The notes below the pieces were generated by a model. That model was not told the DNA's origin and ran no database searches. It saw only the letters and a program-made list of their open reading frames with translations. Of a stretch of 64,000 bases of DNA, positions 9,101 through 39,563 are shown one piece after another (the first letter of the stretch is position 1; each line of letters starts with the position of its first letter). The position numbers and the translations under genes are program-made. Source of the stretch: Eutreptiella sp. 'Long Island Sound 2002'. Lineage: Eukaryota; Euglenozoa; Euglenophyceae; Eutreptiales; Eutreptiaceae. The stretch lies in contig OZ038379.1 of the NCBI GenBank assembly GCA_964036045.1, positions 108,950,025-109,014,024 of the forward strand. The letters run 5' to 3'.

Positions 9101-9135
9101 TTCCTTTGGCTACCATACGCGAATATTTTCACAAC

Positions 9136-9290
9136 CGGTCCACCGGTCTTCGTTAACTCACCGTTTCGACTAGGCAAAATCACCAACTGTTCAGTTGAGA
9201 CCGTTTCGCGCCACTTTAGCTTTCTGTAGCGAACCGGTTAGTTCGGGGAGACCGGTCGGACCGGTCCGACCGGTCTTTGCAAACTGAACG
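9136..9290. repeat. Element B palindrome block, 3' flank
   Basis: ACCGGTCCACCGGT, GAGACCGGTCGGACCGGTC and related ACCGGT palindromes lie downstream of the transposase stop, mixed with short direct repeats TTTAGCACACTT. Confidence 0.85.
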
Positions 9291-9457
9291 GACCGGACCA
9301 TTTTAGCACACTTTAGCACACTTTGGAGCACTTGGTGATGCGTGTGTAGTGTGTGTGTCCGCATGTGTGTGTTGTGTGTGTGCGTGTGCTGGTTCACACC
9401 TTTGCACAGGCATTGCAATGCATGGGAGTCAATCCTCACAAGACATCTATTCATGGT

Positions 9458-10821
9458 TCATTCATGATGGTCCGCAAAGCATTCGACGTGTAGATAGCAC
9501 CCACATGCTTTGCACTTGTATCGGGTGGTGCCCATCCCACAATGTACACAAAAGCCCCGCTTCCCAACCACTATTGGTACATGCTTGTCCACCACCTGAA
9601 TTTGCCTTGCCGGAAACATGTATCTCATCAACCTCCATTGCCAGTCAAACATTGTTTCACCCCCCGGACTAAGGCGCAACGCTTGGCATGACGTAAATGC
9701 ATTTGTTGCCGCTATCCTTAACACCATCCCCCCAAGTGCCTTCCACCATGATTGAAACCGGTGCTCTTCCCGGTGTTGTAAGCACATTTGGTTAAACGTA
9801 TCCACCCCCGGGGCAAACCTACGGTAGTTGGCAATTATCCCCGGTAGGTGGTATCGTCCACTTCGGTGTGGGAGCGAACCTCCGGTCAAGCAATTGGTTA
9901 GTAGTGGTACCACCTTTGCCGGCTTGCGCCCCACTTTGGGATTTTTGTATACCGAGAGTGCATACCGATGTTCCTTGTGCACCACCGTGTTCACATCCCC
10001 CGGGTCTAATCCAACGTTCCCATCTTGCACCAAAGCACTTGTGGAAGTGAGCATCAAGAACGGACGCTCTTGTGCACTTAGCATCGCCGCCGCATCATGA
10101 GACCCAAAGAATGAATCCGCCACAAGCACCTTTCCGGGTGGAGTCACATCATTCCAAAGTTGCACAATCTCAAACGCATTGTAGTGGCCTGCAAACCGGC
10201 TCCGGGACTCTGGACCCACACGAGGGGCTGCACCACGGTACAAATACACATGCCAAATGTAATGGCTTTGTGCGTCGCACAACGCGTACAGTTTCACACC
10301 GGTGCTGTGAGGCTTGCGCGGTATGAACTGGCGGATCACGAACAACCCCTTGTGGGGGACCACGGTCTCATCCCCGCACACCACGTCACCTAGTTCCCAT
10401 CCGCCTTGCCAGTGCATCGTGCACAACTCAATCAACGCATCCGCATCCGGGTCCGCAAGTCGCTGCAGCACATAAAACTATCGCCTGCTAGGAAACAGTT
10501 CCGCCATGTATGCATTGTAGTGCATACTCTCTTTGTCCCACACATCATCTATTCTGCGCGGCTGCAGCATGCCCAAGCCAACTCGAAAGAGCACGTACCG
10601 CGGAAGAAGGTCCACAAGGTCTAACCAGTTGGCCTCTTCCAAACACAGCGTCATGGCCTCCAAAATTGGCCGGAACATAAAGTTCCAGACGGCAACGGGG
10701 GTCTTGCCATCCTCGGTGCCCTCCAAGAGGCTGCGCCCTTTGCGGAGTTCATCTCCAAAATCCCATTTGGCCTCTAGGGGGGCCAGGGGTCTTGGTTCCC
10801 ATGGTGTAGCAGCAGGCATGC
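9458..10821 (-). pseudogene. piggyBac transposase with one in-frame TAG
   Basis: This is a DDE_Tnp_1_7-type transposase, which cuts and pastes the element. One frame runs from at least 10867 to 9458, broken only by a TAG at 10478-10480 (FPSRR, stop, FYVLQRL). An acceptor TTTTTTCAG before 10821 suggests an upstream exon I could not identify. The three catalytic aspartates are visible in CGDETVVPHKG, VADSFFGS and GVDTFNQ. The C-terminal cysteine-rich domain CVHCGMGTTRYKCKACGC plus HVECFADHH has the piggyBac zinc-binding spacing. The remaining ~450 codons are shorter than the usual ~550-600, mostly at the N-terminus. The single stop may be a recent mutation; a suppressed stop is less likely. Confidence 0.85.
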
Positions 10822-10879
10822 CTGAAAAAAAAACAGAATACAAGCTTTTGCTGACCAGTCTTGGCAAACTACCCTAAAC

Positions 10880-11045
10880 CGTTCAGACCGCTTCACTTTA
10901 GATCACTTTGTCCAGAGACCGGTTGGACCGGTCTTTGCAAACTACTCTAAACCGTTCGGACCGGTCCACTTTAGCTCACTTTGTCCAGAGACCGGTCAGA
11001 CCGGTCTTTGCAAACTACTCTAAACCGTTCGGACCGCTTCACTTT
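10880..11045. repeat. Element B palindrome block, between its two genes
   Basis: A ~66-bp unit (GACCGGTCNGACCGGTC, then TTTGCAAACT, TAAACCGTTC and CACTTTAGC) repeats in the spacer between the cargo gene and the transposase. Confidence 0.88.
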
Positions 11046-11266
11046 AGCACACTTTAGTACACTTTAGACTTTCTTTGCTCCCAAACCAAACACGCAGCAG
11101 AAATCATGGAATCATGCAATCCTGGAATCATGTCGCCGGTGTCCCATCAAGCACATGTCTGGCACACGTCTGGCACACGTCTGGCACACCGGCCACACAG
11201 GACCGAAACAGTTCGTCGATAAAATCAAAAGGGAATAGCAAATAGCAAAAGCAAATAGAAAATGAG
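11046..11266. other. Spacer of element B after the cargo gene
   Basis: This spacer holds a TCTGGCACACG triplicate near 11157-11190 and A-rich sequence. I see no gene or promoter I can support. Confidence 0.4.
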
Positions 11267-12491
11267 TTACTCATCCTCATTATCCTCATTATCCTTCTTC
11301 TCTTCCCCGGTCTTCTTGTTGCGGGCCTCGAGCTGCAGCGCGAGTCGCGCCTGTTGTGCGGCGAAGGCCGGGGTGATTTTCATCCCCGGAATCCCGGTAG
11401 CAGCAGCAGCGGAAGCCGCCTGCAGCTGAAGTGCCTGGGTGGAGGGCTCCTGCAGAAAAAGGAAGTAAAGTGGTTTCAACCGAACGGACCGGTACACTTC
11501 GTGACACTTCGTTCAAGGACCGGTCGGACCGGTCTTTGCAAACTGTCGTAAACCGTTCGGACCGGTACACTTTAGCACACTTCACACGAAGACCGGTCGG
11601 ACCGGTCGTTGCAAACTGTCGTAAACCGTTCGGACCGGTCCACTTTAGCACACTTTAGCACACTTTAAAACGAATTGAAGCACACGCATGCCTGAGTTCC
11701 GGCTTCTGGCTTGGGGGCATCGGCTCGCTGGGCGATCGGCTCCCCTGCGCCTGCCTCCTCCGCTGGGACCTGCTGCGGGTCTGGTTCGTGCGATTCTTCG
11801 GGTTCTTGCTCTTTGCTCGGCTCCTGCTTGCTCTTCCGTGCCTCGTCCAACTCCTGTTGCAACGCCTTCAACTTCGCCTCCAAAGCCTCGGTCGCCGCAT
11901 CCTTCTTTTTGCGTTCACGCGCGGCCTCCTCACGACGGCGGGCGTCCTGCAGACCACAGACCACAGTGCTGACTCCATGCATGCACAAATGTAGGCTAGG
12001 GGACCCCTGGACACACATTCCTCCTTTGCCTCTTCTTCCGGGATCTCCATCACGCTTTCTCGCTCCTCCTCCTCCTCGTCTTCTTCGTCCTCTTCTTCCT
12101 CGTCCTCGTCTTCGTCTTCGGACTCCTCGTTCACTTTCCTTTTGCGGGACTGCGCTGCTCGGGCCGCAATCCTCTTGCCCGGAGTAGATGTCTTCGCCTC
12201 CGCGATCAACCAACATCCGAGCACGTCCTCGGTGACGAAGTCAAGCTCGCCCTTGCTGATGCTGCGCTTCAAGCCCCCGGTCTTCTGGTCCTCCGTGAAG
12301 TAGATTGTCCCGGATAGGGACATTTTACCGGACGCCTGCGACTCGCACGTGCCGGTGTAGCGGCCGCCGTGCGAGCCCTTCAGCAGCAGCACCACCCGGT
12401 CTCCGGCCCGGACCTTCTTGAAGGCCGTGGGCACGGGCGTCTCGGCGTCCTTCACGCCGGGGATCTTCGTGCCGGGGCCTGAAATCGGCAT
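11267..12491 (-). CDS. Element B second gene: acidic, coiled-coil protein, three exons
   Basis: I do not recognise a family. Exon 1 (12491 to about 12017) begins with ATG and MPISGPGTKIPGVKDAETP, followed by a small beta-rich-looking stretch (AGDRVVLLLKGSHGGRYTG) and then a basic patch (AAQSRKRK) and a long Glu/Asp run. Exon 2 (11946-11686) starts after TCTGCAG and has a heptad-like charged segment (EALEAKLKALQQELDEA). Exon 3 (11449-11267) starts after TTTCTGCAG and ends EDNEDE. The basic patch suggests nuclear import. Gene order on the minus strand is this gene, then the transposase, the same order as in A and E. The second intron carries the ACCGGT palindromes. It may be a DNA-binding or accessory protein; that is inference. 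Confidence 0.6.
11490..11650. repeat. Element B palindrome block inside intron 2 of the second gene
   Basis: Three copies of the ACCGGT-cored unit lie between the donor near 11685 and the acceptor near 11450, so the block is intronic. Confidence 0.85.
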
Positions 12492-12519
12492 TAAAGAAGA
12501 CTAAGCAACAAAGCAGGGA

Positions 12520-13010
12520 GGAGCGGTCTGACCGGTCCTGTGAAAAGGCAGCAGGAAGTAGGGGACCAGGAGCGAGGTTCGGAAGACCGGTCTGACCGGT
12601 CTGCGTGAAACTGTTTGAACCGATCTATTTTCATGCTAATGGTGCATCCCACCCATCATGCATCGTTGAAACACCCAAGAGGACATGGGAAGCAAAGTCT
12701 GTGTATGTGTGTGTGGTTTGTGCATGGTGTGTGGTGGCGTGCATGCTGCAACGAGCGCGCAAAGGTAGGTTTGGGAGGCAAGTGTAACAAAGTGCTCCAA
12801 AGTGTACCGAAGTGTCCCGGTCCGTTCGGTTTGCAAAGACCGGTCCCACCGGTCTCCGAAACTGGTCTTACTGTTTTTCTCTAAAATACTATTGAGTCTA
12901 AGAAAACCACCAAAACCATCATTTCCGCCACGTTCAAAAACCCTTGACCCAATCCTTTGCCAGAAAGTGATAATTCTCCCCACAAGACCCGACCGGTCCT
13001 CCGTCCGGTC
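12520..13010. repeat. Element B palindrome block, 5' flank
   Basis: GGTCTGACCGGTC-type palindromes occur near 12520, 12590, 12840 and 12990, upstream of the first gene and reaching the right inverted end. Between them is unique DNA with no gene. Confidence 0.8.
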
Positions 13011-13235
13011 TGGTAGCCAAAGGAATATAGCGCTATATTGTCCCGTTTTTCAAATTTTTCAAAACCGGAAAATGTTTCAAAACCATGCTTTTTCCAGTGT
13101 CCTGCGTTTCTCAAAAACCCCTTGCTTTTCAAAAACATTCCTTGTTGCTCATTCAACCCAAGACACATGCAAAAACACTGCCTGAAAGGTCTGAAAAGTG
13201 TGCAACAGTACAGGTCCTCACGGACGAAAACAGTG

Positions 13236-13308
13236 TAGCGCGCGCAACATATTTACAGCGCGCGCTAGGAGCCTTATGGCGCGCGCTATACCAGGTATAG
13301 CGCGCGCT
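13236..13308. repeat. Element C palindrome block, 3' of its large gene
   Basis: Four GCGCGC palindromes (GTAGCGCGCGCAA, CAGCGCGCGCTAGG, GGCGCGCGCTATA, TATAGCGCGCGCTG) lie just past the stop codon of the gene ending at 13310. Confidence 0.85.
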
Positions 13309-13309
13309 G

Positions 13310-16300
13310 TCATTCAGTGATATCCTTAATGGTTTGGACCACCACTTCGGCCTCCCACTCCTTCTCCCAATCGGGTCTGTGGTCTTCTGCCCCAGTGGCA
13401 GCTGGGGCTGCATCCCCTTCTTTGTGGTCTTCTGCCCCAGTGGCAGCTGGGGCTGCATCCCCTTCTTCTTGTGGGCTTGGGTCGCCTTCTGGGGTTGCTC
13501 CTTTTGGTGCCTCTTCTTCTTTCGGGGCTGCTCCTTCTCCTTCTTGTGGCGTGGCCGCTGGTGCCTCTTCTTCTTGTGGTGGGGCTGGTGCGTCGTCTTC
13601 TTGTGCTGCTGCTGCTGCTGGGGCTGGTGCCTCTTCTTCTTGTGCAGCTGCTGCTGGTGCTTCTGCTGGTGCTGCAGCTTCGGCAGGTCCCTTGTCTCCT
13701 TGTGGGGGGGCTGGTGGCTGGGCTGGTTGGTCCCCTTGGGGCTTCTTCTTCTTTGGGGTTGGTGGCTTGGACGGGGACATCCTCATGGTCTTTGGGTCGG
13801 GGCAGAGGTCCTCAATCTCATCAACCTCGTACGTCTCCCACCACGACTGCCACTTGCCCAACTCCTCATACGCTTTGCTTTTGGCGGAGAACACCTGGCA
13901 GCTGGGCATGAACTCCGACCAGTCGTCCTCTTCCTCCTCCTCCTCCCCTTGTTGGCTGGGGCTCCACTGATCGTTGGGGATGATGACGGCCACGTGGTCC
14001 TGAGGGGCCCTCCTGGCGCCTGCTGGCTTGATTTCGGCTCCCTCCACAATCATCGGCGCGATCGCAGTGGTGCAGTAGATGATCCACCGAGGCTTGTAGC
14101 CGTCTTTGTAGGACCAATCTCGGCGCTGCATGAGCTCATCTCTTGCCTCCTTGTCCGCGTCGGCTCTGCTCTGCTGCTTGGCCTTGGGAGCCGTACTGGG
14201 TGGGGTGGAACCGCACGGACCTCCTTGTTCTTGTGGCTGGTCTGGGACGGGGACAGGCTGCTTCGGTGCTGGCTTTGATGCGAGCTGCGGCTGGGGTGCC
14301 TGCTGCGGTGCCGTCTTGCTTGCCTGGAAAGAGTAGCGCGGAGGCATAGCACAGGCATAGCACGCGCAATACGGAACATAGCACGCGCGACGAGATGCAT
14401 AGCACGTGCAATGACGACGATAGCGCGCGCTGCATTACCTTTTCTGCGTTCTCCTCCTCTGCTTTCTTCCGTCTCTTCTCCTCCTCTTCCTTCTCCTTCT
14501 TCTCCCTCTCCTTCTTCTTCCTCTTTTCCTCCTCATCCTTCTCCTTCTTCTTCCTCTTTTCGTCCTCTTCCTTCTTCTTCTTCTTTGCTTCGTCCTCTTT
14601 CTTCTTGGCCTGTTCCGCCTGACGTTGGACTCTGTGTGCCGCCTGTGCCATCAGCTGCTGGTGTGGGAGGCGGAGATGGCTGGTGGTAGGTGGCTGGTGG
14701 CTGCTGGCTCCTCGGTACGCTTCTTCTTGGGCCTTGGGACTGTCACGGATTCCGTCTCCGGCACGGCAAAGGCGTCGGCCCAGTCCACCTCCAGCTCCTC
14801 CAACTGCCGCTTAGCCCGGGCCAGCACCGGGGAGGGGCCTTGCTCCTTCCGTCCGTCAAGCCAGTCGGCCGCATGCTTGGACTGCCCGGCAATGTCCGCG
14901 GGCACGCTGATCATCAACGGCCCTCTGCGGGATCCCAGGCACAGAAGCTGCTCAAAGCTGCCCACCTACGTGACAATGGGACAGAAGGTAGGGCCGTAGC
15001 GCGCGCAAACAATCAAATCGCGCGTGCTACAACAAATGAAGCGCGCGCAACAATGTCGAAAGCGCGCGCAATGGCAAACATAGCGCGTACCTGTGGCTGT
15101 GCCAGTTGTTGTTGTTGTTGCTGCTGTTGCTGGGCCATCTGCACCCGCTGCTGCTGCTGGAGCAGCTGCAGTGTTGCCTGCTGCACGGCTGCCTGCTGTT
15201 GGAGCTGCTGCTGCTGCACTTGCTGCTGCTGCGGCTGCTCCTCGTCCTTGACCGCCGTGGTTTTGACTTTGGCGCCGGTTGCAATTGCCCTTGCGGCACT
15301 GGCTCCTCTTTTGGCTGACCCCCGCATCAAACTGGCACCCGCACTTCTCACCGAGGCGCACTCGTTCTTGAAGGCCATTGCCCCCGCGTCGGTCGCGTTG
15401 ATGAAGCTCGGTGGGTCCTTGTTGAAGTAGAAGTGGTGGACGGTCTTTGCGGTGGCACCCGGAGGCGTGTGGGTCCGAACGTGACCCCACCCATAACTTG
15501 CCCAGCACGAGAACAGCAGCTCGTACTCCTCCACCTTGCAGTGTCTACAGGCAGCTTGTCCTTCTTGGGTTGGCACGGAGGGGTTCAACAGGTTGTGGAG
15601 ACTGCACCAGGTGCCAGTAATGCTCTCGTCATACCAGCAGGGTTTCACGGCTCCGTCTGGGATCTTGGCAATGGCCGTGGCCCTTTGGCGCCAGAACTTG
15701 TAGAAGGCCACCTCGAAGAGGTAGGCCGGTGTCACGTCCTTCAGCCATGCCCAGTTGGGCCCTTGGGCGCAGATGGTGCTGTTTTGGTTGGGCCAGATTC
15801 GGTTCTTGAAGTCGCTGCTGAAGGCGAAGCCCTGACGTGGCCCGGGTGGGGGAGACTGAAACTGTGCTTGCACTTGGGGTTGCTGCTGTCTTGGTTGGAC
15901 CTGCTGCTGCTGCTGCTGCTGCTGCTGTTCTGGGCTGCCGACTTGCTGGGCCGCAGCCTGCACTTGCTGCTGCTGCATTTGCTGCTGCTGCTGCACTGGC
16001 AGTGGGCCGAAGAGCACTTGTTGCACTTGGCCCACTGGAAGACTGCCGCGCACTGGGGAGCCCAAGGTGGGCGACCCACCGGGGAACAGCATGGGAGACA
16101 GCTGCTGTGAGGCACCTCGTAACGGGGACTGCGGCGCGGGCCACAGAGGCTGAGTTGGGGAGAACTGGGTCAGCTGCTGGGACAGCGTCTGCGGAAAACG
16201 GGACAAAGCACGCGCAACCAGGACGTGCGTAGTGCGCACAACGAGACAGCTAGCACGCACAATAAGAGCGTAGCACGCGCAACGGAAACAGTAGTGCGCG

Positions 16301-16510
16301 CAACGGAAACAGTAGTGCGCACGGCAAGTACCTGTGGCTGCATGCTCCACGGCGTCGTCGACGGCTGCTGCAGTCCCGGTTGTACAGCTGCATGTGGCGG
16401 TGGTTGCGGTGTCGCACCTGCTCCTGTGGCCCCTGCAGCAGTTGTTGGCGGTGCTGCAGGAGGCGGATACCCCCAGCCCACGGGCTGCATGGGCAAGGGG
16501 GTTACATTAA
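13310..16510 (-). CDS. Element C large low-complexity gene, at least four exons
   Basis: The family is not recognised. Exon evidence, in reading order: 16510-16331 (Pro/Ala-rich, donor GTACTTGC); 16193-15090 (acceptor CCGCAG, two poly-Gln tracts around a non-repetitive core with WLKDVTPAYLFEVAFYKFW and a CRHCKVEEYELLFSCW stretch, donor GTACGCG); 14971 to about 14442 (acceptor CACGTAG, then a long Lys/Glu coiled-coil-like run); 14327-13310 (acceptor TTCCAG, core RWIIYCTTAIAPMIVEGAE, then Pro/Ala/Glu repeats, ending IKDITE). A frame break near 14655 separates two open frames, so this copy may be damaged or have another small intron. All three introns carry the AGCGCGCGCT palindrome. It could be a DNA-binding accessory protein of C. 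Confidence 0.5.
14333..14436. repeat. Element C palindromes in an intron
   Basis: Degenerate copies of ATAGCACGCGC and ATAGCGCGCGCTG fill the intron between the Lys/Glu-rich exon and the last exon. Confidence 0.75.
14997..15093. repeat. Element C palindromes in an intron
   Basis: GTAGCGCGCGCAA, CGCGCGTGCTA, AAGCGCGCGCAA and ATAGCGCGTAC lie between the poly-Gln exon and the next exon. Confidence 0.8.
16205..16328. repeat. Element C palindromes in an intron
   Basis: GTAGCACGCGCAA and GTAGTGCGCGCAA variants fill the first intron of the large gene. Some have lost the perfect palindrome by C-to-T type changes. Confidence 0.75.
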
Positions 16511-16711
16511 AGTACCCCTGTTCCAGCAGTAATACAAAAAGGAAAATGCAGTAACAAAAAAATCGAAAGCACCAAAACAAACGGACGAAAAGGAGCAAAT
16601 CAATGCATTCCAAATTCCAATCAATGCATTCCAAACGCTTTAAGTGCGTAGTCATAGCACGCTACTTCCGACTATATATCGCGATTTCAAGGGTTCCGGC
16701 GCTTGAAAACA

Positions 16712-16793
16712 TTATAGCGCGCGCGATAGTGATCATTGCGCGCACTAGATAACATGTAGCGCGCGCTAAAAAGCAAATAGCGCGCGCTACCAC
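16712..16793. repeat. Element C palindrome block between its two genes
   Basis: TATAGCGCGCGCGATAG, GTAGCGCGCGCTAAA and ATAGCGCGCGCTACC lie between the transposase stop and the large gene. Confidence 0.85.
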
Positions 16794-17772
16794 AGTTCCT
16801 CATCCGCAAAATATGCCCGAACCTCGTCAGCCAATTTTTGTGCATTGCACAGGTTGCTTCTGGAGTTGCCATTCCACCTTGGTACTTCAAAGTACAGGAA
16901 CAGACGCTCATTAACCTGCCTGAGCGTCTTAATGCGGCGCGACACCAGGGTTCCTGCCCCCCCACCTCTATCACAAAAGGAGGACCAAATGTCCTTCAGC
17001 ACCCTGTTGCTCCCTTCCAAAAGATCACCCGAAAACATTCCTAGGCCATCGGGCCTTATGGCCTGAATAGTGACTGTTGCATCCTGCAACATCCAGTTTA
17101 TATAAGGTGATCTTATTGCTGGACAAACCCACCTCTGGAAAGCCTGGGCAACCTCTGGAGCCTGCAATGCACCCTCTTCAAACATTGTGCCATACATGTC
17201 CCCCAGTAGTATGTACATGGCAACCACTGCTGTGTGCATTCTCATGTCACCCCCAAGGAGGGGGGCCAGTTCCTCCCAAACCTTTAGAAGGCACCAAGTC
17301 TCTTCCCCATCTGGCTCTGCCGTCCCCTGTAGTGCTATGTGACAACCAGACCTGTGAAGAATAGCCTGAACAGAGACCCTAGTACTGGGACGCACAGACT
17401 TGTACCCGAGGAAAATAGCGCGCGCAACATGGGGACGTAGCGCGCGCAGAAGTCAACGAAGCGCGTGCTATGAGCGGAAGTGCGCGCAATGTCACATGCA
17501 AAGCGCGCGCAATCATACCTTCTTCTTGGAATCTTCAGGAGCAGGACCAAGTCCACCACCGACAGGGGTGTGACGGCGTTGGCAGCCTCGGCCCTGCGAC
17601 GCTTCTTCTCTGCTTCAGACACGGGGACCCTTTTTTCCAACCTGGCCCACAAAGACCGTTGGACGGCAGACCCTGAGCAAAAAAACTCAACTAGGTCCGC
17701 CAAAAGGTCCTCGTTCTTCCACAGGGACCACCCATAGTGGGGGCCCAAAATGTTTGCAATCTTCCCTGACAT
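16787..17772 (-). pseudogene. Element C transposase, C-terminal region only
   Basis: Exon 1 (17772-17519) reads GKIANILGPHYGWSLWKNED and ends at a GTATGATT donor. An intron with palindromes follows, and exon 2 (about 17400-16787) ends ADEELW. Exon 2 contains LLEGSNRVLKDIW, which aligns with AMEGSHRRLKRML of element E and KGEGRHKALKCEI of element A at the proposed catalytic glutamate near the C-terminus of the DDE domain. The upstream parts with the two aspartates are not found before the element end at 17960. The piece is therefore a truncated transposase, and the element would depend on a full-length relative. Confidence 0.5.
17415..17512. repeat. Element C palindromes in the transposase intron
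   Basis: ATAGCGCGCGCAA, GTAGCGCGCGCAG, AAGCGCGTGCTA and AAGCGCGCGCAA lie inside the intron between 17518 and about 17400. Confidence 0.85.
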
Positions 17773-17876
17773 TAACAGCGTCAGATGCGGTGCCGGAAGA
17801 ATCTGAAACTTTAGAAAAATAGGCGTTTTTGCCCTGCTTATTAGGACATGGGGTTACAAACCCAAGACCCCGAGCC

Positions 17877-17960
17877 ATAGCGTGCGCTATGCTGCGCGCT
17901 ATAGTTTTGTAGTGCGCACTGAGCCATCGCGCGGCAATACCCTGTAGCGCGCACACAGGG
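17877..17960. repeat. Element C palindrome block at its right end
   Basis: ATAGCGTGCGCTATG, CGCGCTATA and GTAGCGCGCACACAGGG lead into the terminal inverted repeat. Confidence 0.75.
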
Positions 17961-17962
17961 TA

Positions 17963-18434: not shown

Positions 18435-18663
18435 TGTGTAACTACGAAGCCAACCCCAGATACTGTACATTCGCCAACTCCTGGTCAACTCCATGTCGAG
18501 AGCATTCAACTTGCTTGTACTTGTGCACTGTGTTGTTGCTACGCCTTGTGCATGAAACGTGAGGAACTATTGATATTTTACAGCTTTTGGTTGCGTTGCT
18601 TTGTTGTTATGATGCAATATGTGCGTTTTTTGGGTCGAAGCCAACTTTTTGGAAGCCAAGTCA

Positions 18664-18760
18664 AAGTTGGCGCGCCAACTTGGCAGTTGGCGCGCGCCAA
18701 CTCAAGAGTTGGCGCGCCAACTTGGCGCGCCAACTCCGGTTTTGGCGCGCGCCAAGTGCC
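18664..18760. repeat. Element A palindrome block 1, upstream of gene 1
   Basis: About six copies of TTGGCGCGCCAA or TTGGCGCGCGCCAA lie just upstream of the gene 1 start region, a position where they could act on the promoter. Confidence 0.9.
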
Positions 18761-18825
18761 CCATTCTTCCTCTTCTTTTGCACCCTTTATGCATTCCCTT
18801 TCCCTTCTAGGCATTTCACGTTATC

Positions 18826-22749: not shown

Positions 22750-22771
22750 GCAGGCACTGGCTGGGCATGGT

Positions 22772-29085: not shown

Positions 29086-29466
29086 TGTCACAGAATTTCT
29101 GCCAAAGCCTCATCCTTGTGCCCTCGTTGACCCTCACAAAGCAAGCTCAGGATGGTGCTCATGCTGTCATTGTCATTGTCATTGTCTCATGCTGTCATTC
29201 CGGCTGTCACTCAGCCAGCAGTGTAATATACAAACAGTTCCGCAAAAAGGAATCGCAAATTAACAGGTTAACAGGTTAACAGGTCAGGGGGCACATCAGG
29301 TCAGGGGGTAATGTACAAACAGTGCTGCAGAAAATTTCGCACAGTGGGGGGGGAGTACCCCACATATCGGTCAAACTGCCCATGCTTGGGGGGGGGGGGG
29401 GGGCAGGATAACATTCGTCGTGGTTAGAAAGGCGTGGTTAGAAAGGACAGGTGCTCCGGAGGGTAC

Positions 29467-32400
29467 CTACGCACCCCCCCCCCCGGGAGCAGAGCTCCGG
29501 CTAGCGGAGCCCTGGGAGCTCTGCTCCGCCACCGCCTCCACAAAGGAGGGGTCCATGGCCGCCGACGTGAGGCGGTGGGGGGGGTACTGCCGGCGCACTT
29601 CCTCCATTGCGGCAGTCACCTTGGGGGCGTCCGGGGCCACGCTGTCCACATTGACCTGCTGGCCACTGGCCATCATGGCCATCCGCAGGCCGGTGGACAC
29701 TGCGGACATCTGGCCGGCGCATGCCTCGGCCTGGGCATGCCAGGCCTGTGCGCCGGCCAGGAGGTACCGGACACCGGCAGCACTGGCCCCCCCCCTGTCA
29801 GCCGGGGGGGCGGGGGCCTCGGCACCCTCAGCCCTCTCCACTGCCTCTGCTGGCTGTGCCGCTGGCTTTGCCTTGCGCAACGTCGCCACGTCACGCTCCA
29901 GGGTCTTCACCTTGGTGGCCAGCCGGTCACGCTCCCTGGTGACGTCCGCCAACCGCGACTCGCAGTCCCGCAGACGGGCCTCGAGGTCGCGGTTGGCGGC
30001 CTCCGCGCTGATGGCGCGTGCCTCCCACGCCCCCGCCCGCTGCTGGTCCACCCACTCCTGCACCACCCCCCTCTGCCCCCGCCCCCCCGACGGCTCCGCC
30101 TGCTCCGCCCGCCCTGCCCGCTCCCCCAGGGTGGCCGTACGCGGGGCTTTGGGGGGGGGGGTGGGGCCCGTGTCCCCTTCGGGGCGCCCTTTCCGCTTGC
30201 GCGTGGGGGGGGGGTTCGTCCTCCTCGACGTCAATGACGTCAGCCACCACCCCCATCTTCCGCTGCCTCCCCACATGGACGCGCATGGCAACCCATGCCA
30301 CGTCCACCCACTCCGGCCTCCGCTGCTCCCAACCCGTGAGCACATTCAGCCCACAAATCCCTGCCGTCGTCACCATCCCCCCCTCCCCGATCCCCGACAC
30401 CCCCGTCTGCACCCGCCAGTGCCCACTCACAAGCCGGTAGGCAAACATGCCCACCAGCTCCTGCCCCGCAGGCAGGTTGGACCCCCCCCGGAGCACAATG
30501 GGGCAGGGGAAGGAGATGCGGAGGGTGCCCTGCACCCCCCGCGACTCCAACTCCATGTCCCACACGGCACTGAGGTGCCGCTGCCGCCCATCCGGCCCGG
30601 GCGGCACCTGCTGGGTCCAGGCCGGATCCGGCTGCCTGGCGGCCAGGGTGACCCGGTCCAGGGGGGGGTCGGTGTGGGCCTCGCCCAGCTCGTCGCGGGA
30701 CGGCTGGGGCACCACCACCTCGCGCGCCATATGCCCCCTGGCGGTGCTGGCCTCGCTGCCTCCCGAACGCCGAGAGCGCTGCGACCCCACACTGCGCACG
30801 CTGCCGGCCTCGCTTGGTGCCCGTCCACCGCCGGTGCCTGCGGGCTGGGCGCCACCGGGGCCTTCGGCGGGCTCGGCGTGCTCCTCAGGCAATCGGGGCC
30901 GGGGCTTGTACTGGCGCCTGGTGTGGTGCGGAATATCCGGCGACCAAGCGGTGAACGGGACCTGCATGCAGATGTGGGGAGGTGTGCAAGGCAAAAATTG
31001 AGAAAGGGGGAGTGGACACGGGGCAATGGAAGAGCAAAAGGAGCAAATTGGACGAAATTCACAGAAATTCGTACGAAATTCGTACGAAATTCGTACGAAT
31101 TTCGTACGAATTTCACATCTCGAGAAAATTCACACAAATTTATTCACGTGAAATTCGTACGAAATTCGTACGAATTTCGTACGAATTTCGTACGAATTTC
31201 ACGTGAATTTCGTCCAATTGTTGCAAATACACAAAGCAAACACACAAGCAGGCACACCTTGCAGTCGCATGGGCAGGTGATGCTCCATGCCCCGGTCCTC
31301 GCGCACTTGGGCGACCGCCACGCTGGGACCGTGTTCACCAGGTGCCACAGCGTGGTCGGCCGACCCGGGGGGGCAATGCCGGACAAGGCGAAGTGGATCT
31401 CCGACTCCGCGTCGACATCGCCCCCCTTCACGACCTCCAGCTGGTGCACGCTGCCCAGGAAGAACAGCATGCACTGGGGGCCGACCTCGATGACGGCGAG
31501 GTCGGCGGCCGGGGCCGACCGGGAGATGAAGGTGGGGTGGAAGGGGCAGGTGGGGGGGCCTGCCGGGAGCGTCTGCGGGGGGTCGGCGAACAGGGCCTGG
31601 GCAGCCTCCCCCTCCCACAACCCCACCCTCGCAACCGCCCCCTTCCCCACCCACAACACCTGGTCCACGCTGGGGAGGTCCCAGCTGGACAAATCCCCAG
31701 CAACGTCCAGGGCCTCCTTGGGGGGGATGGCGTCCAAGTGTGTGGTGTTGGCCTGGTGGTGTTTGTGTCGGGGGTCGGGGGTCCACAAGTTAAAAAGAGC
31801 CCCCTGCAGCCCATCCTTGGAGTCAGGGTGGGCAGGCAATCCATGATGGCGGCTGGTGGCCACCATCAGCAGCATGTCCCCCCGATGCAGCTGAACGGTG
31901 TCCCAGCGCGCCTCCGCCGCCTCCCCCAGGGCCGTCCCCGCCTGCACCGCCACCTGGTAGTCCTCTGACAAGCAGAGGAAGCTACTCAGGTGGCAGTCCC
32001 CCACCGCCTTGTCGCTGGGGGGGAGGACTTCGGGGTGGGTGGTCACGTCGGTGTGGGGGAGCTGCGGCCCACTCCCCACACTGGCCACAATGATGCTGCC
32101 CGGCGTCATTGGGTGGAGGTCCTCAACCCCAGGGACACTTTCGGTGAGGTGGGGGTGGAACTTCTTGAAGAGAGGCCCCCCCACCCCCGAGCCCAAGGCG
32201 CTCTTGCTTTGCCACCGGCGGGGGAGCTCGGGATCCTTGGCCTGCTCCTCACTCCGCGCGGCGTTGAAAAGGAGCTCAAAATTTTTTGCGACGACTTTTT
32301 CGTCGCCGCTGCCCCACGCCTTCATCACCTTGTTCCACCCCACCTCACAATCCCGTTCCTCCACAAGCCCCCGAAGCACAATGTAGCCGTTCCCATCAAC

Positions 32401-33177
32401 AAAGTTGAGGGGCGGCTGAGAGGGGCCAACCCTGTCGGGGGCGGGGTCAGGGCTGCCCGTCACCCCATGAGGGGGGTCGGGAAGGGGTTCGGTGCGGAGG
32501 GGGGGTTCACTCGAAATGAAGGGGGGGGCGCATGAGGCACCACGGTACCATTGCAAAGAAGTTGTGCTGTAGAAGGTGGGGTGGGTGACGTCGGGGACGT
32601 GCACCTGGGGGGGGATGGTGGGATGGAACGGGGCGACGCCCAAATCATCCCACCACCGGGGGTTGGCAAGATGCCAAGAAAAGGGGAAAAAAGAGTGGCC
32701 TGCTGGTGCACCTGCAGCAAGATCTTGCAGGCACACCATATCGCAGTGGGGGGGGGTGTGGACGAGGTTAGTGGTGGGGTACACCTGGACGTGGGCGTCC
32801 TTAGGCTTCCCCACAGGGTTATTCCTCATCGAGTTGAGGAGCTGGTCAACACTGGAGGGGAGAGGGGTCAGATGGAGAAATTTGAGGGTGGGGAGTTGGT
32901 GGCGCAGTTCCCTCCACAGGGTTGTGGCCCATCCCCTCCCCCCGAGGTAGCTGTTGCGGGTGGGGCTGCGCATGTCGATGTGGATGACATCGGGGGAGGG
33001 GTCGAGGGAGGCTGCCCAGCCCACGATGGCATCCACCCCCAGTGCCTCCGACTCGTACGTTGCCTCCTCCAATTGATGGTGGGCAACGGGGAGGGCTTGG
33101 TAGTGGGCGAGGGTGTCGGCTGCGGGGTCGGGGCGCGAGGCCAGGCTGGCGAGCTGCGACATAGTCTGCTGCGACAT
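29467..33177 (-). CDS. Element E gene 1: 2OG-Fe(II) oxygenase-like protein with coiled coil
   Basis: It starts at ATG 33177 (MSQQTMSQLASLA). Exon 1 ends at 31258 (donor GTGTGCCT) and exon 2 starts at 30961 after GCATGCAG. The motif HVPDVTHPTFYST near residue 195 is shared with A/D. NGYIVLRGLVEERDCEV near 265 looks like the entry strand and helix of an oxygenase. PHTD gives ligands H375 and D377, RGDMLLM precedes the second His at about 444-445 (SRHHGLP), and LFNLWTPDPRHKH follows. These positions match H380/D382/444 of A. Exon 2 has a Pro-rich and basic patch (RKRKG, likely nuclear import) and a coiled coil (LEARLRDCESRLADV). One C-run near 30205 must differ by one base to keep frame, so check for a sequencing slip. 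Substrate unknown; TET/JBP-like base oxidation is a hypothesis. Confidence 0.65.
31060..31205. repeat. Element E palindrome block 2, in intron of gene 1
   Basis: Two runs of GAAATTCGTACGAATTTC lie between the donor at 31257 and the acceptor near 30962, mirroring the intronic block of A. Confidence 0.92.
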
Positions 33178-33227
33178 TGTCAAAGAGTTTGAGAGCTGTG
33201 GGAAAGCGAAACAGTGGAAATGAGGGT

Positions 33228-33292
33228 AAATTCGTACGAAATTCGTACGAAATTCGTACGAAATTCGTACGAATTTCGTACGAATTTCACAT
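33228..33292. repeat. Element E palindrome block 1, upstream of gene 1
   Basis: One run of GAAATTCGTACGAATTTC units lies directly upstream of the gene 1 start. Beyond it toward 33556 there are GTGAATTTC and CACGTGAAT variants and no gene. Confidence 0.9.
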
Positions 33293-33679
33293 ACTGTGAA
33301 TCTGTGAATCTAGCGTGAATTTCTGCGTGAATTTAGGTGCGTGAATCTCACATTCACGTGAATCTCACCAAATCTGTTAAACCATGCGGGGACTTTAAAC
33401 CTCTAAATTGCACCTATTTGTTGCATCTTACTTTGGGCGAAGGTAGCACGACAAAAGCACACGATAGCACCAAGTTACGAGCAAAACACAGCAAAATTGG
33501 GTGAAATTCACGGTACCGTGAATCTCGGATTCAAACGGCCGGTTCACGAAGGGTACAAATGGAAACTTTTTACCCTGAAAAAACCCGGGTTTCATGCCCC
33601 TCTCGTGCTGAAAACACTCCTACACGGTACAAAAGTCCCAAAGTTGGCTTCCCGGGCCTGGGCTCGCGCAAATTCACAA

Positions 33680-33781
33680 GTTGGCGCGCCAAGTCCGGAC
33701 TTGGCGCGCGCCAACTGGGAAGTTGGCGCGCGCCAAGTCCGGACTTGGCGCGCCAACTTGCGACTTGGCGCGCGCCAAATG
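33680..33781. repeat. Element D palindrome block 4 (3' flank)
   Basis: TTGGCGCG(CG)CCAA copies equivalent to 25000-25075 of A, with one extra copy. Confidence 0.9.
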
Positions 33782-33965
33782 TCCCCCCACCGATCAAACC
33801 ATCGACTTGCATACCATTGTTGTCACTGGAAATTCCGTCCCTCACCTGCCCTTGCACACTTGGCACGAAGAAAGCATTGTTCCATCTTTTTTTGATTAAT
33901 GTGCAAAAGACTGCGAATGTGCAAGAAGCTGTCAAATCAATCATATAAATCATATATAGAGGTCA

Positions 33966-34389
33966 CATGCCTTGTTCAGCCTGGACGAAGACCCCCTTAT
34001 TCTCTATGTACCCCCTTTGCTTCGTCCACGACGACTCCCAAACCGAAAATTTTATATTATATAACCCCGAGTCCAGATTATCTGAGCGGATCACTTCCCC
34101 CCACCCCTTCCGCGTGCGATCCCCCTTGCCCCCCTTCACCCGCACTCTGGCCCCCCCCAGTCTGGACACCCGGCCGCCTTTACTTCCACCTCGAAAGCTG
34201 CGACAGCTCCAAAGCGGGGGTGGGGGGTTTGCTCTCCCCGCAAACGAGGTGGATGCGGCGGCGGCCGGGTTTGACGTGTACTTCCCAATGTGGCCCCAAA
34301 ATCTCCCCCACGACTTCGCGAAGGCGTGCCAGCCGCGCGCGCCTGTCGCGGTAGTTTGAGGGCGCCAGCTGCTCAAAGGGCCGCTGCAT
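33966..34389 (-). pseudogene. Element D transposase remnant with 1.4-kb internal deletion
   Basis: It starts MQRPFEQLAPSNYRDRRARL and, unlike A, keeps the frame through LREVVGEILGPHWEVHVK. At about 34206 it jumps from the codons for TPALEL to sequence that in A lies at about 24577, losing all catalytic residues. The tail ends FVQAEQGM in another frame. D is therefore a non-autonomous derivative and would need transposase from a relative. Confidence 0.8.
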
Positions 34390-34489
34390 GGTGCAAAGAC
34401 CTGCGGCACGTGAGGACGTGGCAGGCGGGTTGGATCATGCAACGGAACGTTGTTGCACGTTCGCACACAGATGGCACACAGTTGGCAGG

Positions 34490-34680
34490 CAGTTGGCGCG
34501 CGCCAACTCAGGATTTGGCGCGCGCCAACTCGTCAGTTGGCGCGCGCCAAGTCCTGAGTTGGCGCGCGCCAAGTGGCAAGTTGGCGCGCCAACTTCCCAT
34601 TTGGCGCGCGCCAACTCCCCTGTTGGCGCACGCCAAATCAGGATTTGGCGCGCCAACTTACCACTTGGCGCGCGCCAAAA
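34490..34680. repeat. Element D palindrome block 3 (between genes)
   Basis: About nine palindrome copies, compared with six in A at 22772-22893. The array has gained or lost units since A and D diverged. Confidence 0.9.
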
Positions 34681-36106
34681 CCATGCCCAGCCAGTGCCTG
34701 CTCATTTCTTCGACCGCTTGCTGCCCTGACTCTGACTCCCCTCGCTCTCTTCCGCCCGCCTGCGCTTGGGGTCAAGCAGGTGCGCAACCGGGTGCTTGTC
34801 CAGCAGGCCCTTCAGCTCCGTGAGGGTGGCCTCTTTGACCCCCATGTTGATGGCCACATGGCGTTGGGCGCTGAGTGCAGAGTGCAACTCCACCGCCGCC
34901 GCCTGCAGGTACAGCACATGCTGCCCATGGTCGGGGTCGGCACTACCCTCTGCCCCCCCCCCAAACTGCACGCACCTGCGCCGTGGCGGTCACCTGCTGC
35001 TGCAACTCCCCCCTCTGCTTTTCCCACCCCTTCTCCCGCCGCTCCCACAAGGCGCGCTCACCGGTGAGCGCGTCCTGTGCCGTCTTGCGGGCGGCCTCCG
35101 CCGCCTTCAGCTGCTCGCGCAGCAGCTTGTTCTCCGCCTCAAGGCGGAGAATCTCCGCCTTCTCCCGTGCCCCCCCCCCCGTCTCCCGCTGCCTGCGCTG
35201 CCTGTGCTGCCTCCCGGGGGGTGGTCGTGGGGCGAGGGCGCCTGGAGCCCCTAGCTTGCTGCTCCGTGCGGCCCTTGCTCTGCAGGGAGGGGTCCCCAGA
35301 CACGTCAGATGCGGCCCTGCCCCCCTTCTCCCCCTTCGGCCCTTTCCCCACGAGCTGCTTCTGGAAGCGGAGCATAAACGCCTGCGCTGCCTCCTTCAAG
35401 TGCGGGGCGGGGGCAATGGCCCGCACGTCGCTCCACTCACACTGCTTCCACCTCTGCAGCTGTCCCAGAGCGTCAATGCTGCAGAGGAGGAGCCGGTTGT
35501 GCGTGGAGGGGGGGCGCACCTGCACAAAGGGCACAACGGAGACAACCCATGGTTGCACCCCCCCCTTCCCCTGCACCACTGCCCAGAACGGGCACTCCAC
35601 CACCCTATTCTGTCCCGAACCCCGCCGAATCACCTGCGCCTGGAACAGGCGGCTGATGATCGTCCCCCCCCCATCGACGACGTCCACCGCCGTCGCCTCG
35701 GCGGACGTCACCTTCAGGAACTTGTCGGGGCTGTGCAAGGCGTCCCCGAAGTCCGCCGGTTCCGGGACCTCCGGAACTTCCCAATCCACCACCACGTCCA
35801 CATCCACCTCCAACCCCTCCTGCTGCTCCTGCCGCTGCTCCTGCCGCTGCTCCTGCCGCTGCTCCTGCCGCTGCTCCTGCGGCTGCCCCTCCACCTCCTC
35901 CGCCCCGGCCGGCACGGGCACCGGACGCGGGTCCACTTCCAATTGAAAATTGGCGTAGTGGATCGGGACCTGCAAATGCGCAACAACACAAGCATAAAAC
36001 AATGCACACAACGACACCACTACAACAACGAAGACAACTCGAAAACCAGCCACAGAACAACGTTTCCGATAAAACCCAACGAATTAAATTCAGGCGCCAA
36101 AACGGC

Positions 36107-36293
36107 ACTTGGCGCGCGCCAACTAGCTATTTGGCGCGCCAAAACTTGACTTGGCGCGCGCCAAAACTGGACTTGGCGCACGCCAACCGAACACTTGGCG
36201 CGCCAACCGGTGACTTGGCGCGCGCCAAGATGGAAGTTGGCGCGCGCCAACTGCGAAGTTGGCGCGCCAATCTGCTAGTTGGCGCGCGCCCAA
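36107..36293. repeat. Element D palindrome block 2 (intron)
   Basis: TTGGCGCG(CG)CCAA array in the gene 1 intron, matching 21154-21352 of A copy by copy. Confidence 0.9.
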
Positions 36294-37354
36294 TTCGTGT
36301 CACGTGTGACAACACCGCATGCATGCAAGGCACCGCGCGGGCACACCTTCTCGCTGCAGGAGCAGATGGTGCGGCGGGCCTTGTCCACGCGGACGAGGTC
36401 CAACATCTCGGCGTCCTGGGAGCTCAGGGGCGGGGTGAAGTGGGCCATGGCCATCCAGGCCATGCGGCCGGCCCCTGGCTCCCGCACGAACGCAGCGCCC
36501 AGTGCAGCGAACGAGTACACCACCGTGCCGGCCGTGCAGCGCACGCGGCAGAAGTCGGTGGCCTCGGGGGGGGGAAGCCACCACCGGTGGATGTGCGGAG
36601 TGAGGCAGGCATCCGCTCTGGCCGCCTCGGCGGTGGGCCCCACGTGCGCGTGGTCGGTGGGGGTCAGAAACAGACCCGCAGACACCCCCTCTTGCAGGAG
36701 GAGGACGTCCCCCATGTAGGGCACCGGGGGGTCCAACGGCTGCTCAGCCTGCGACACGAAGCAGACTGGCTGGGGGATCGCGTCGGGAGTGAGGAAGTCC
36801 TCCTCTGCCGGGGGGGGGGCGGCCGGCCTCTCCTCCGCTTCCGCCGGCGCCTCCGCATCCGCCGGCGCCTCCGCATCCGCCGGCGCCTCCGCATCCGCTG
36901 GCGCCGCCGGCATCTCCTCCTCCTCCTGTGCCGCACTCTGTGGGGGGGGGGGGGCATCCGCGTCAGCCGGCGCGGCCGGCCTCTCCTCCGCATCCGCCGG
37001 CGCCTCCGGCATGTCCACCTCGTGGGGGGCAGGCACGGGGTCGGTGGCGGCTGCCTCGGCCTCCTCAGACCCCTGGTCGAGGGGGCTGTAGTTCGCACTG
37101 GCCTCTGTGCCCAGAGGGGACCCGACTGCAGCCCCCTCGGCCAGAAGCTCGGAGGGCATCACCGGAACACTGTTCATCAGCTCCGTTACACTCTCCGGCT
37201 CTACGGTCAGCATGCGCGACCGGTAGCCGACGGGTGCAAACGGGATGAACAGTGCCCGGCCAGGCCCGCCCGCACCGCGGTGGATCACCGTCCCGCGGAG
37301 GAGCGTCACGCTGCGAAGCGGTTGGATAACAATATCCCACCGATGCGCAGCGTG

Positions 37355-38103
37355 TGTAACTACGAAGCCAAGGGACATTCGCCAACTTGCTTCGGAATGC
37401 AGCCAAATCATGGCGGGTGTCTATTATGTTGTTACACTGGCTACCTAGGGATTTTTTCCTCCTTTTTGGTGTAAATGGAAACTTTTTACCCTGAAAAACC
37501 CCGGGTTTCATGCCCCTCTCGTGCTGAAAACACTCCTACACGGTGAAAAAGTCCCAAAGTTGGCTTCCCGGGCCTTGGCTGGCCCAAATTCGCAAGTTGG
37601 CGCGCGCCAACTCTGGAGTTGGCGCGCCAAATCCGGACTTGGCGCGCCAAAACTGTCAAGTTGGCGCGCCAAAACTGTCAAGTTGGCGCGCGCCAAGTGT
37701 CCCCCCACCGATCCAACTGTTGGGCGCGCGCGACTGGGCTGTTGGCGCGCGCGACAGCCGGACTTGGCGGGCGCCAAGTTGACAGTTTTGGCACGCCAAG
37801 TCCGGATTTGGCGCGCCAACTCCGGAATTTTGGCGCGCCAAGTTGCGACTTGGCGCGCCAACTTGTGAAAAAACTTTGACTTGGCTTCCAAAAAGTTGGC
37901 TTCGACCCAAAAAACCAACATATTGCAACATAACAACAAAGCAACACAACCATAAGCTGTAAAATATAGATAGTTCCTCACGTTTCATGCACAAGGTGTA
38001 GCAACAACACAGTGCACAAGTACAAGCAAGTTGAATGCTCTCGACATGGAGTTGACCAGGAGTTGGCGAATGTACAGTATCTGGGGTTGGCTTCGTAGTT
38101 ACA
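37355..38103. mobile_element. Mini-element F: 749-bp MITE-like derivative of family A
   Basis: The same ends TGTAACTACGAAGCCAA lie at 37355 and, complemented, at 38103, flanked by TG (37353-37354 and 38104-38105). The empty site is visible in A at about 20092. It keeps roughly 240 bp of each end of A and D, and between them only palindromes; all coding sequence is gone. It should be movable only by the A-family transposase. Confidence 0.9.
37595..37866. repeat. Palindrome core of mini-element F
   Basis: About twelve TTGGCGCG(CG)CCAA copies, some changed to GGGCGCGCGCGAC or TTTTGGCACGCCAA, make up the whole centre of F. Confidence 0.9.
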
Positions 38104-39431
38104 TGATAGCCCCCCTGCGTGCCCGGGCACACCTGGAGGGACTTGGACGGGGGAGAGGTGGTGAGGGGGATGAACACGACCATGCACTGCACTGACTGTT
38201 TCACAGACAGTGCAAAATCGCGGTGGGGGATCTGGAAACCCTTCCAGGGTTCTGCCTCCCACCGCTCGATGATCTTGGGGCACAAGGCCTCAAGTCCCTG
38301 CAGCGGTGGGAGGGAGAACCCCAGCAGGGCCAGAACAGCCTGCCAGAGGTCGTCCGGGAGCCAGTGGGGGACGGTGGAGACCGTCGTCTGATAGCGCCCC
38401 CCACCTTCCCCGGGGGCCTGGAGGTCCACCTCCTCGAGCATCGACGGGTTGAGTTCCACCGTGGCGAGCTCCGCCAGTCTGGCCCACAGATCCTCGGGGA
38501 TGATGCGGTCATACTGGCGGTAGCCCGCCGCGGCAAAACCCTCCTCCGTGACGATGGGGGGGTTGGGGATGTCGTGGTTGGCGACGGGGTAGGAGTTGTG
38601 GAAGGAGGGGTGGGGGCAACCCATGCCAAGCATGGTGAAGGGGGCGTCGGTGCTGTAGAGGGTGGGGTGGGTGATGTCGGGGATGTGGGTGCGCAGGCGA
38701 CGGTTGGTGGAGACCTCCGTGGGAGCTACTGCATCCCACGCCTGCACCTTCACCGTCTGGTACCGCACGACGGCGTCAGTGGCCGTGCGGTGCGTCCAGC
38801 CACTTTTTTTGACTGGATCCACCCACAGCCACTGCTCCTCGGGGTCGAGACCCTGAGGCGGCATCTCCTGCAGGTCGAGAACGTTAACGAACACTTTTGA
38901 CGCTGCAGCAGTGCACAGCTTCACGGTCTTGTTGAAGGCCTCAAGGGTGACTTGAGAAAGCTTCAACTCGACCGCGAGCGTCGTGGGGTACCGGCCCATC
39001 ACGGCACAGCAGAACCTGCTAAGAACCCCCCTGGTCAGGGCGAAGTTAACACGGGTGGCGTCAATTCGCCAGACCAAGTGGGGATTGCCCGGCTGGTCCC
39101 ACTTGCCGAAGAGGGCGGCCTCCAGGGGTTCGCGGAGGGGGGGGAGCTGGGGGAAGGATTCGGCGTCCGGGGAGGTGAGGGTGTAGGGGATGGGAAAATA
39201 GCCCCCGGGGAAGTGCTCGGAGCCCACGTTGGCGATGTGGGCATCGACCACCGGCTGCACCTCGGGGTTAGGTGGTGCAGCGGGGGCTGGGGCTGGGGCA
39301 CACGTGGGGTCGGTGACTGCCACCTTCTTCCCCTTGCCCTTCTTGGGTTGCTTTGGAGGCATGATAACGTGAAATGCCTAGAAGGGAAAGGGAATGCATA
39401 AAGGGTGCAAAAGAAGAGGAAGAATGGGGCA

Positions 39432-39563
39432 CTTGGCGCGCGCCAAAACCGGAGTTGGCGCGCGCGAACTCAAGAGTTGGCGCGCCAAGTTGGCGCGCCA
39501 ACTTGGCAGTTGGCGCGCCAACTCTTGAGTTGGCGCGCGCCAACTGCCAAGTTGGCGCGCCAA
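39432..39563. repeat. Element D palindrome block 1 (upstream of gene 1)
   Basis: This block is equivalent to 18664-18760 of A, with more copies and a tandem TTGGCGCGCCAA-AGTT arrangement. Confidence 0.9.

Follow-up and report, generated by a model that had tools for sequence, protein, structure and literature searches.

The window analysed here is the whole 64,000-bp stretch at positions 108,950,025 to 109,014,024 (forward strand) of contig OZ038379.1 in the genome of Eutreptiella sp. 'Long Island Sound 2002' (assembly GCA_964036045.1). It contains a nest of DNA transposons, designated A to F, in which E and F lie inside D, and B lies inside C. Their non-coding blocks carry arrays of dyad-symmetrical sites with near-helical spacing, and such arrays occur both in a group of elements that appears CACTA/Mirage/Chapaev (CMC)-like from its motifs and in a piggyBac element, at thousands of sites in the genome. 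The initial annotation of the window had described the elements as each filling their non-coding blocks with a private CpG-containing palindrome, and the counts in the window, the placement of the units and, for A, B and E, the genome counts against controls of zero all bear this out. The window contains 27 occurrences of TTGGCGCGCCAA, 28 of TTGGCGCGCGCCAA, 24 of TTCGTACGAA, two of TAGCGCGCGCTA and 100 of ACCGGT, together with five of AGCGCGCGCT, the core of the C palindrome. Searches covered 2.28 Gb in 2205 contigs; the genome counts are of sequence patterns irrespective of the enclosing element, each paired with a reversed-sequence control. All copies come from this one genome and are those nearest to the query, and gene models were drawn by eye on open reading frames.

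Transposons of the window and their palindromes

Element A (18437..25315, forward strand) is bounded by terminal inverted repeats (TIRs) of TGTAACTACGAAGCCAA and a 2-bp target duplication, TG. Exon 1 of gene 1 (18826..21099, forward strand) has a premature TAG at 19843-19845 and is followed by an intron at 21100-21476; gene 2 (23002..24815, forward strand; main open frame 23481-24815) encodes a DDE transposase with C(2)C and H(4)H motifs. Arrays lie in the 5' flank (18667..18755, five units), the gene-1 intron (21154..21337, nine units), the gene spacer (22773..22892, six units) and the 3' flank (25000..25073, four units). Element D, a reversed member of the same family (26467..39794, reverse strand, target duplication TA), contains E and F and is missing most of its gene 2. 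Its arrays occupy the corresponding places: the 3' flank (33681..33778, five units), the gene spacer (34493..34678, nine units as against six in A), the gene-1 intron (36109..36292, nine units) and the 5' flank (39433..39563, seven units). A and D are 98.7% and 96.9% identical in their two longest aligned stretches. Element F (37355..38103, reverse strand, target duplication TG) is 749 bp long, is related to A and lies within gene 1 of D; it consists of both ends with their arrays, and it aligns to A only at these ends, arrays included. The palindrome type claimed for A, D and F, TTGGCGCG(CG)CCAA, was recovered as 55 exact occurrences of TTGGCGCGCCAA or TTGGCGCGCGCCAA, 21 in A, 26 in D and eight in F. 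None of the 21 exact units of A lies in coding sequence, which makes up a fraction of 0.76 of the element, nor does any of the 26 in D, and no A-type unit is found inside E.

Element E (26588..33557, reverse strand), nested in D, has TIRs of TGTACCCTTCGTGAAC and a target duplication of AA. Gene 2 (27050..28813, reverse strand) encodes a transposase of 587 amino acids, and exon 1 of gene 1 (31258..33177, reverse strand) adjoins an intron at 30962-31257. Arrays are present in the 3' flank (26871..26906), in the gene spacer as two clusters (28935..29063), in the gene-1 intron (31068..31196) and in the 5' flank (33231..33284). All 24 exact copies of TTCGTACGAA in the window lie within E and none is coding (coding fraction 0.74).

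Element B (9101..13025, reverse strand) is of the piggyBac type, with TIRs of TTCCTTTGGCTACCA; its gene 2 matches DDE_Tnp_1_7 (PF13843, E=1.2e-21), albeit with an in-frame stop at 10478-10480 in the transposase frame. The target site of piggyBac elements is TTAA. B, of which one copy was examined, is bordered on both sides by TATA, not TTAA, and the TATA could be part of the TIR. The accessory gene encodes acidic and coiled-coil-like stretches, with only low-complexity matches below curated cut-offs. Units with an ACCGGT core are found in the 3' flank (9134..9274), the gene spacer (10918..11005, as 73-bp repeats), the gene-1 intron of the model drawn by eye (11488..11639) and the 5' flank (12531..12997). 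The layout in four places that the initial annotation reported, 5' flank, gene-1 intron, gene spacer and 3' flank, is thus seen in A and E, likewise in D, and by its ACCGGT units also in B. The companion claim that the palindromes are absent from exons holds for A, D and E, although in B the transposase exon contains two of the element's 26 ACCGGT copies, each standing alone. The hexamer by itself is not confined to B, since 74 copies in the window lie outside it, 57 of these in 65-bp satellites. These satellite arrays (49119-49999 and 60145-63569) contain ACCGGT in most units and inflate the hexamer count. The longer B unit is private, with 230+224 matches in the genome and none for the reversed control, and the matches are often spaced like the three blocks which that unit marks in the window.

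Element C (9022..17960, reverse strand), split by B, has TIRs of CCCTGYGTGCGCGC and a target duplication of TA. Its arrays, at 13237-13308, 14359-14431, 14998-15091, 16207-16323, 16716-16788, 17417-17511 and 17879-17955, are located in flanks, spacer and probable introns, and their units are mostly imperfect and often 21 bp apart. At C/G positions of the C core, 31 of 51 changes are C>T or G>A, which alone says little.

Half-sites, spacing and genomic copies

Units of the A family combine nearly invariant half-sites with a free interior. The 24 units of A share 99.2% identity over the ten positions of their half-sites, whereas positions 3-6 of the central gap show 27.6% identity, against 29.0% expected from composition. 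The 30 units of D give 98.7% for the half-sites and 29.1% for the gap (29.5% expected), and F, with three such gaps only, gives 41.7% against 38.9%. The gap is nevertheless of constant length, 8 bp in 49 of 56 cases in A, D and F. Copying of whole units would give like gaps, whereas those of A and D vary freely, so the A units are not slippage copies; a constraint on site and spacing appears to fit the pattern in A and D better.

Eleven base pairs correspond to about one turn of the DNA helix and 21 bp to about two, and spacing is close to whole turns in four families, two turns in A and C and one in E and in a further family, G, described below. Centre-to-centre distances are 21 bp in 14 of 20 neighbouring pairs in A and in 17 of 34 in D and F, where nearly all the others are 20, 22 or 23 bp; in C, 21 bp accounts for 16 of 30 distances below 60 bp. 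In E all 20 neighbour distances are 11 bp. Here too the half-sites stay while the centre varies, TTCG-TA-CGAA in E corresponding to TTCG-CG-CGAA in G. Within the E arrays 34 of 48 one-mismatch counts fall on the central TA, although a unit flanked on both sides may be counted twice. We note that the commonest variants in the E arrays (stretches L035-L050 and the window) have a TG or CA centre, and these are one-step intermediates between the CG centre of G and the TA centre of E.

The private patterns are abundant in the genome. The phased A pair with its gap gives 1939+1917 matches against none for the control, and on contig C1, at ∼31.87 and ∼37.80 Mb, clusters of A pairs form four ordered blocks, judged from position and gap sequence alone. 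The 18-base E palindrome GAAATTCGTACGAATTTC has 2699 matches, and its reversed control has none. With E gene 1 as query, 69 copies were scored of 9269 candidates and the DNA of 30 was cut out, one of them being the window's own copy (L005) and another, on a small contig, identical to it (L006). The initial annotation had allowed that other copies might prove to be without palindromes, but TTCGTACGAA arrays are present in all 30, with 2-6 units in the 5' flank, 2-11 in the gene-1 intron and none in exon 1. Sixteen longer stretches, 12 of which are sites also among the 30, all carry 5'-flank, intron and spacer arrays, and 15 also have exact units in the 3' flank, L037 being the exception; in L045 the right end of E was not recognised. 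Exon 1 differs from that of the window's E by 0-17 bases per 1917 in 26 of the 30 copies, the other four containing shifts that fall outside this measure. Fifteen genomic copies in addition to that of the window, measured at both ends, define the E terminus as TGTACCC..., with a 2-bp target duplication in 14 of them.

Other repeats and remnants lie elsewhere in the window. Between 1930 and 4960, units of 22 bp built around GTGCAC (consensus TGCAGCGTGCACAATGCGTGCG), spaced near two helical turns, make up non-coding blocks that lie partly within an apparent 900-bp tandem duplication seen by eye; no element was found there. Coding-like remnants at 8129-8990, 18040-18436 and 25316-26466 (reverse strand) appear by eye to be one gene interrupted by C, A and D, and GIY-YIG-like and reverse-transcriptase-like stretches suggest a Penelope-like element, with no Pfam match above the curated cut-off. 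Seven perfect repeats of CCCTAA, which we take to be a telomere-type repeat, lie inside the contig at 42192-42233.

Relatedness of the families

The initial annotation was right about privacy and non-coding placement, but its view of the elements as unrelated does not survive comparison of A with E, whose transposases are homologous (34% identity over 352 amino acids, E=4e-50). The products of gene 1 have in common only a block of 26-61 amino acids (E=2e-6 to 6e-4, BLAST and hhalign), centred on H-x-P-D-x-T-H-P-T-x-Y-S-T. Both elements also have TGTA... ends and 2-bp target duplications, and the further conclusion that the layout was not inherited is thus not supported for this pair.

Family G was found with a divergent homologue as query (at most 41% identity to the query, with E copies at 37-38%), and is known from stretches of spacer, intron and gene 1 rather than from a full copy. 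One stretch (L051) carries four exact and four variant TTCGCGCGAA units, with an 11-bp step within runs; they occupy the gene spacer and the gene-1 intron, and this intron has the same position as in E. The gene 1 product of the stretch is 37% identical to that of E over 140 amino acids (E=1.6e-29). Two other stretches, assigned to G by eye (L052 and L053), have one and three exact TTCGCGCGAA units in the spacer. The G unit is therefore present in the spacer of all three stretches and in the intron of the one stretch in which it was read, E-type units being absent, and the G 21-mer has 124+108 matches in the genome against none for the control. In this, the one extra family read, the motif tracks the family. 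The seven best G transposase hits all lie within 0.8 Mb (contig C3, 170.96-171.74 Mb) and all have a 613-amino-acid open frame, pointing to a local cluster or a segmental duplication.

Because A and E have homologous transposases, a common gene-1 block and similar ends, and because the intron position is shared by E and G, the layout was probably inherited in A, E and G, with the motif having changed since. The same layout probably arose convergently in piggyBac B, and convergence is needed only for B and perhaps for C.

Placement of the A and E transposases in a superfamily rests on motifs, since profile and fold searches were empty: there was no matching family in Pfam or NCBIfam, no significant sequence match in the Protein Data Bank (PDB), and nothing at E<=0.001 in a fold search with a poor model (predicted local distance difference test, pLDDT, 48.4). 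Their alignment contains DGT, a second D (in A), CWxC, H(4)H and a final E, and a signature of this type is given for EnSpm, Mirage, Chapaev and Transib in the available passages of PMC12730594. Where the second catalytic Asp is expected, the window's E transposase has Tyr; most of the readable relatives do have Asp. All five motifs are found in 11 of 46 homologue rows, the others being fragments, changed, or missed by the search expressions. CMC elements have target duplications of 2-4 bp, a range that those of A, D and F and the 2-bp duplications of E fit. The TIRs begin TGTAACTACG in A and TGTACCCTTC in E rather than CACTA, so these are not En/Spm (CACTA) elements proper, and from the motif signature we regard A, D, F and E as CMC-like. 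No relatives were confirmed in viral contigs, a collection from which records close to the window's genome may be missing.

Possible roles of the arrays and comparison with known systems

The half-sites are constant, the centres vary, the spacing is fixed and each motif is private to its family, a combination that suggests rows of sites for a dimeric protein. This binder would be encoded by the element, because the motif differs from family to family within a single host, and gene 1 is the candidate because A and E have diverged far more in gene 1 than in the transposase. We therefore favour, as on balance probable, a reading in which every element encodes an accessory protein that binds its arrays, as TNPA does in maize or VANC in Arabidopsis. 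The protein would load onto all the non-coding blocks of its own family and onto those of no other, and since the step between neighbouring sites is close to one turn in E and G and to two in A and C, the bound dimers could all face the same side of the DNA. In this way the protein may prevent the host from silencing the blocks that bear promoter, intron and ends, and the arrays at the ends may also aid transposase assembly.

Several observations weigh against such an accessory protein. Neither a known DNA-binding domain nor a family match was found in gene 1 (Pfam, NCBIfam, PHROG; no significant PDB match), and the binder could be a host protein or the transposase itself. The spacing in B is 9, 31 and 33 bp within the 73-bp repeats and is not always near whole turns, and the E arrays are simple 11-bp repeats, the copy number of which could change by slippage. 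Substitution per site in the E arrays (0.0070) is higher than in coding sequence (0.0045) and lower than in other non-coding sequence (0.0113), although the alignment of the repeats is uncertain; CpG transitions are as frequent in the E arrays as in coding sequence, so no special protection is apparent there. Some E-type units are also found off the regular blocks: there are 2-4 extra units beyond the counted blocks in four of the 30 loci (L015, L017, L018 and L034), L042 carries two exact units outside the element, and L001-L003, which were cut around single palindrome hits, have units outside regular E blocks. The initial annotation had recognised that palindromes common outside the elements would count against its proposal; the patterns, far above their controls, favour privacy, and these off-block units do not. 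We note that such palindromes may be derivatives or belong to another family. L001-L004 have only 2-4 exact E units each, irregularly spaced, and L004 adjoins further hits of one cluster.

A rather unlikely alternative is that the transposase, or a complex of it with the gene 1 product, binds the arrays just for assembly of the transposition complex, the internal arrays being by-products or regulatory decoys. Subterminal repeats are required in cis in CACTA elements, according to the accessible parts of PMC2613891, and F has retained both ends and their arrays. However, 238 of the 364 exact in-block E units in the 16 longer stretches are internal (spacer and intron), where a role in end synapsis is not expected, and the TIRs share the palindrome no more than by chance. 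A common motif in TIR and palindrome was rejected as a candidate, the shared words of 5-6 bases being matched by 176 (A), 841 (E), 302 (C) and 1053 (B) of 5000 shuffles and the A TIR fitting the E palindrome better than A's own. To sites for a host protein (enhancer, insulator, nucleosome positioning), acquired independently by several elements, we give little credence: a single host factor has no need of family-specific motifs, and the zero reversed controls and the fixed blocks within elements speak against a general host motif, even if a layout common to piggyBac and a ∼21-bp spacing common to A and C are what such a factor might leave. Unit number varies in a manner that slippage or conversion could produce, by expanding palindromes where coding constraint is absent (2-11 units in the E intron, 2-6 in the E 5' flank, six in the A spacer and nine in that of D), and gaps per site are highest in the E arrays (0.052). 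The identical units with saturated gaps in A and D are not producible by whole-unit slippage, however, and block placement is fixed across E copies, which makes a purely mutational origin very improbable. That the arrays act as RNA hairpins of introns or untranslated regions is scarcely credible; every unit is self-complementary, but gene spacers and outer flanks contain arrays too, and perfect palindromes of 10-14 bp would give little or no loop.

The CpG palindromes might also be substrates of base modification, with gene 1 encoding a 2-oxoglutarate/Fe(II) (2OG-Fe(II)) dioxygenase that erases methylcytosine there, although we consider this improbable. In D, gene 1 was read as two pieces that are not joined, one with HRD and the other, further on, with HRGAGGPGR; exon 1 of E gene 1 has PHTD and RHHG at a similar spacing, and the resemblance of these motifs to the 2OG-Fe(II) site is unproven. 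A has Pro in place of that His of HRGAGGPGR, and by eye E is without the usual Arg and B gene 1 without such a motif. That gene 1 is a proven dioxygenase is not supported: it matches no profile in the family databases named above, the A-E alignment of the region is no better than shuffled (z about 0.9), and the single-sequence model of E gene 1 is unusable (pLDDT 37.6). Most stretches measured in the window have an observed/expected CpG ratio of 0.67-0.87, with TpG and CpA in excess, a pattern to be expected of a host that methylates CpG. The exceptions are B gene 1 (1.10) and the non-coding sequence of B (0.99), and they weigh against this reading. The ratio of 1.63 in the arrays is due to motif composition. 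Shielding of the arrays from CpG decay was considered and found no support, the transition rates in E being 8/1842 in arrays, 54/12154 in coding sequence and 16/1818 elsewhere in the element. A fuller version, to which we assign a similarly small chance, makes gene 1 a fast-evolving 2OG-Fe(II) dioxygenase for which the element's own CpG palindrome is both address and substrate; families would split by a shift of the centre, and piggyBac would have converged with a different accessory protein. As TG and CA centres are commonest in the E arrays, CpG deamination could on this version supply the steps from the CG centre of G to the TA centre of E. DNA transposons bearing TET/JBP genes are known in fungi, and in the passages available of PMC12730594 they have, in several superfamilies, an accessory gene of possible anti-methylation role; there is no TET/JBP match here, and palindrome arrays were not found in the passages searched.

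If each element does encode a protein for its own arrays, the nearest precedents are in plants. A search of the literature by title and start of abstract, with most subscription papers outside its scope, found neither these families nor palindrome arrays in all non-coding blocks of a transposon, and came closest with papers on VANDAL elements. B resembles the piggyBac superfamily in its gene 2 and differs from it in having an accessory gene, non-coding arrays and TATA borders. In CACTA elements (En/Spm, Tgmt*) a conserved transposase, TNPD, accompanies a poorly conserved DNA-binding protein, TNPA, and the reiterated direct and inverted subterminal motifs bound by TNPA vary from family to family, also among families of a single species (PMC2613891, parts available). 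The A and E transposases have the C(2)C/H(3-4)H signature of the CMC type, and the divergence of gene 1 would parallel that of TNPA were its product to bind the arrays. Unlike the CACTA repeats, which are subterminal, the arrays described here also occupy the gene spacer and intron, and the ends are TGTA....

VANDAL21 and VANDAL6, Mutator-like elements of Arabidopsis, are closer in layout. In the portions available of PMC5735166 and PMC10398659, VANC proteins bind private motifs in intron, intergenic and terminal blocks and remove methylation there; the motifs are short and each family's own, unit number varies by copy, and the element-encoded partner has variable regions. Private motifs dense in these same blocks and sparse in exons are what we find in the window. 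The VANDAL motifs, as far as those portions describe them, are non-palindromic, in one orientation and in tandem repeats whose units evolve together, whereas in A each unit is a dyad, the gaps are saturated and neighbours stand near whole helical turns apart. For VANDAL both the binding and the demethylation have been demonstrated; the arrays here are known from sequence, and gene 1 has no Pfam match. Arrays of private, diverging motifs paired with a fast-evolving partner protein have so far been known from a few plant elements, CACTA and VANDAL, and the present families suggest that elements repeatedly evolve a chromatin-addressing system of their own. Because the gene 1 products of E and G are homologous and their palindromes differ in the central bases, these two families would allow the origin of a new specificity to be tested directly. 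The division of labour that we propose between gene 1 and the transposase would be that of TNPA and TNPD in CACTA elements and of VANC and VANA in VANDAL elements.

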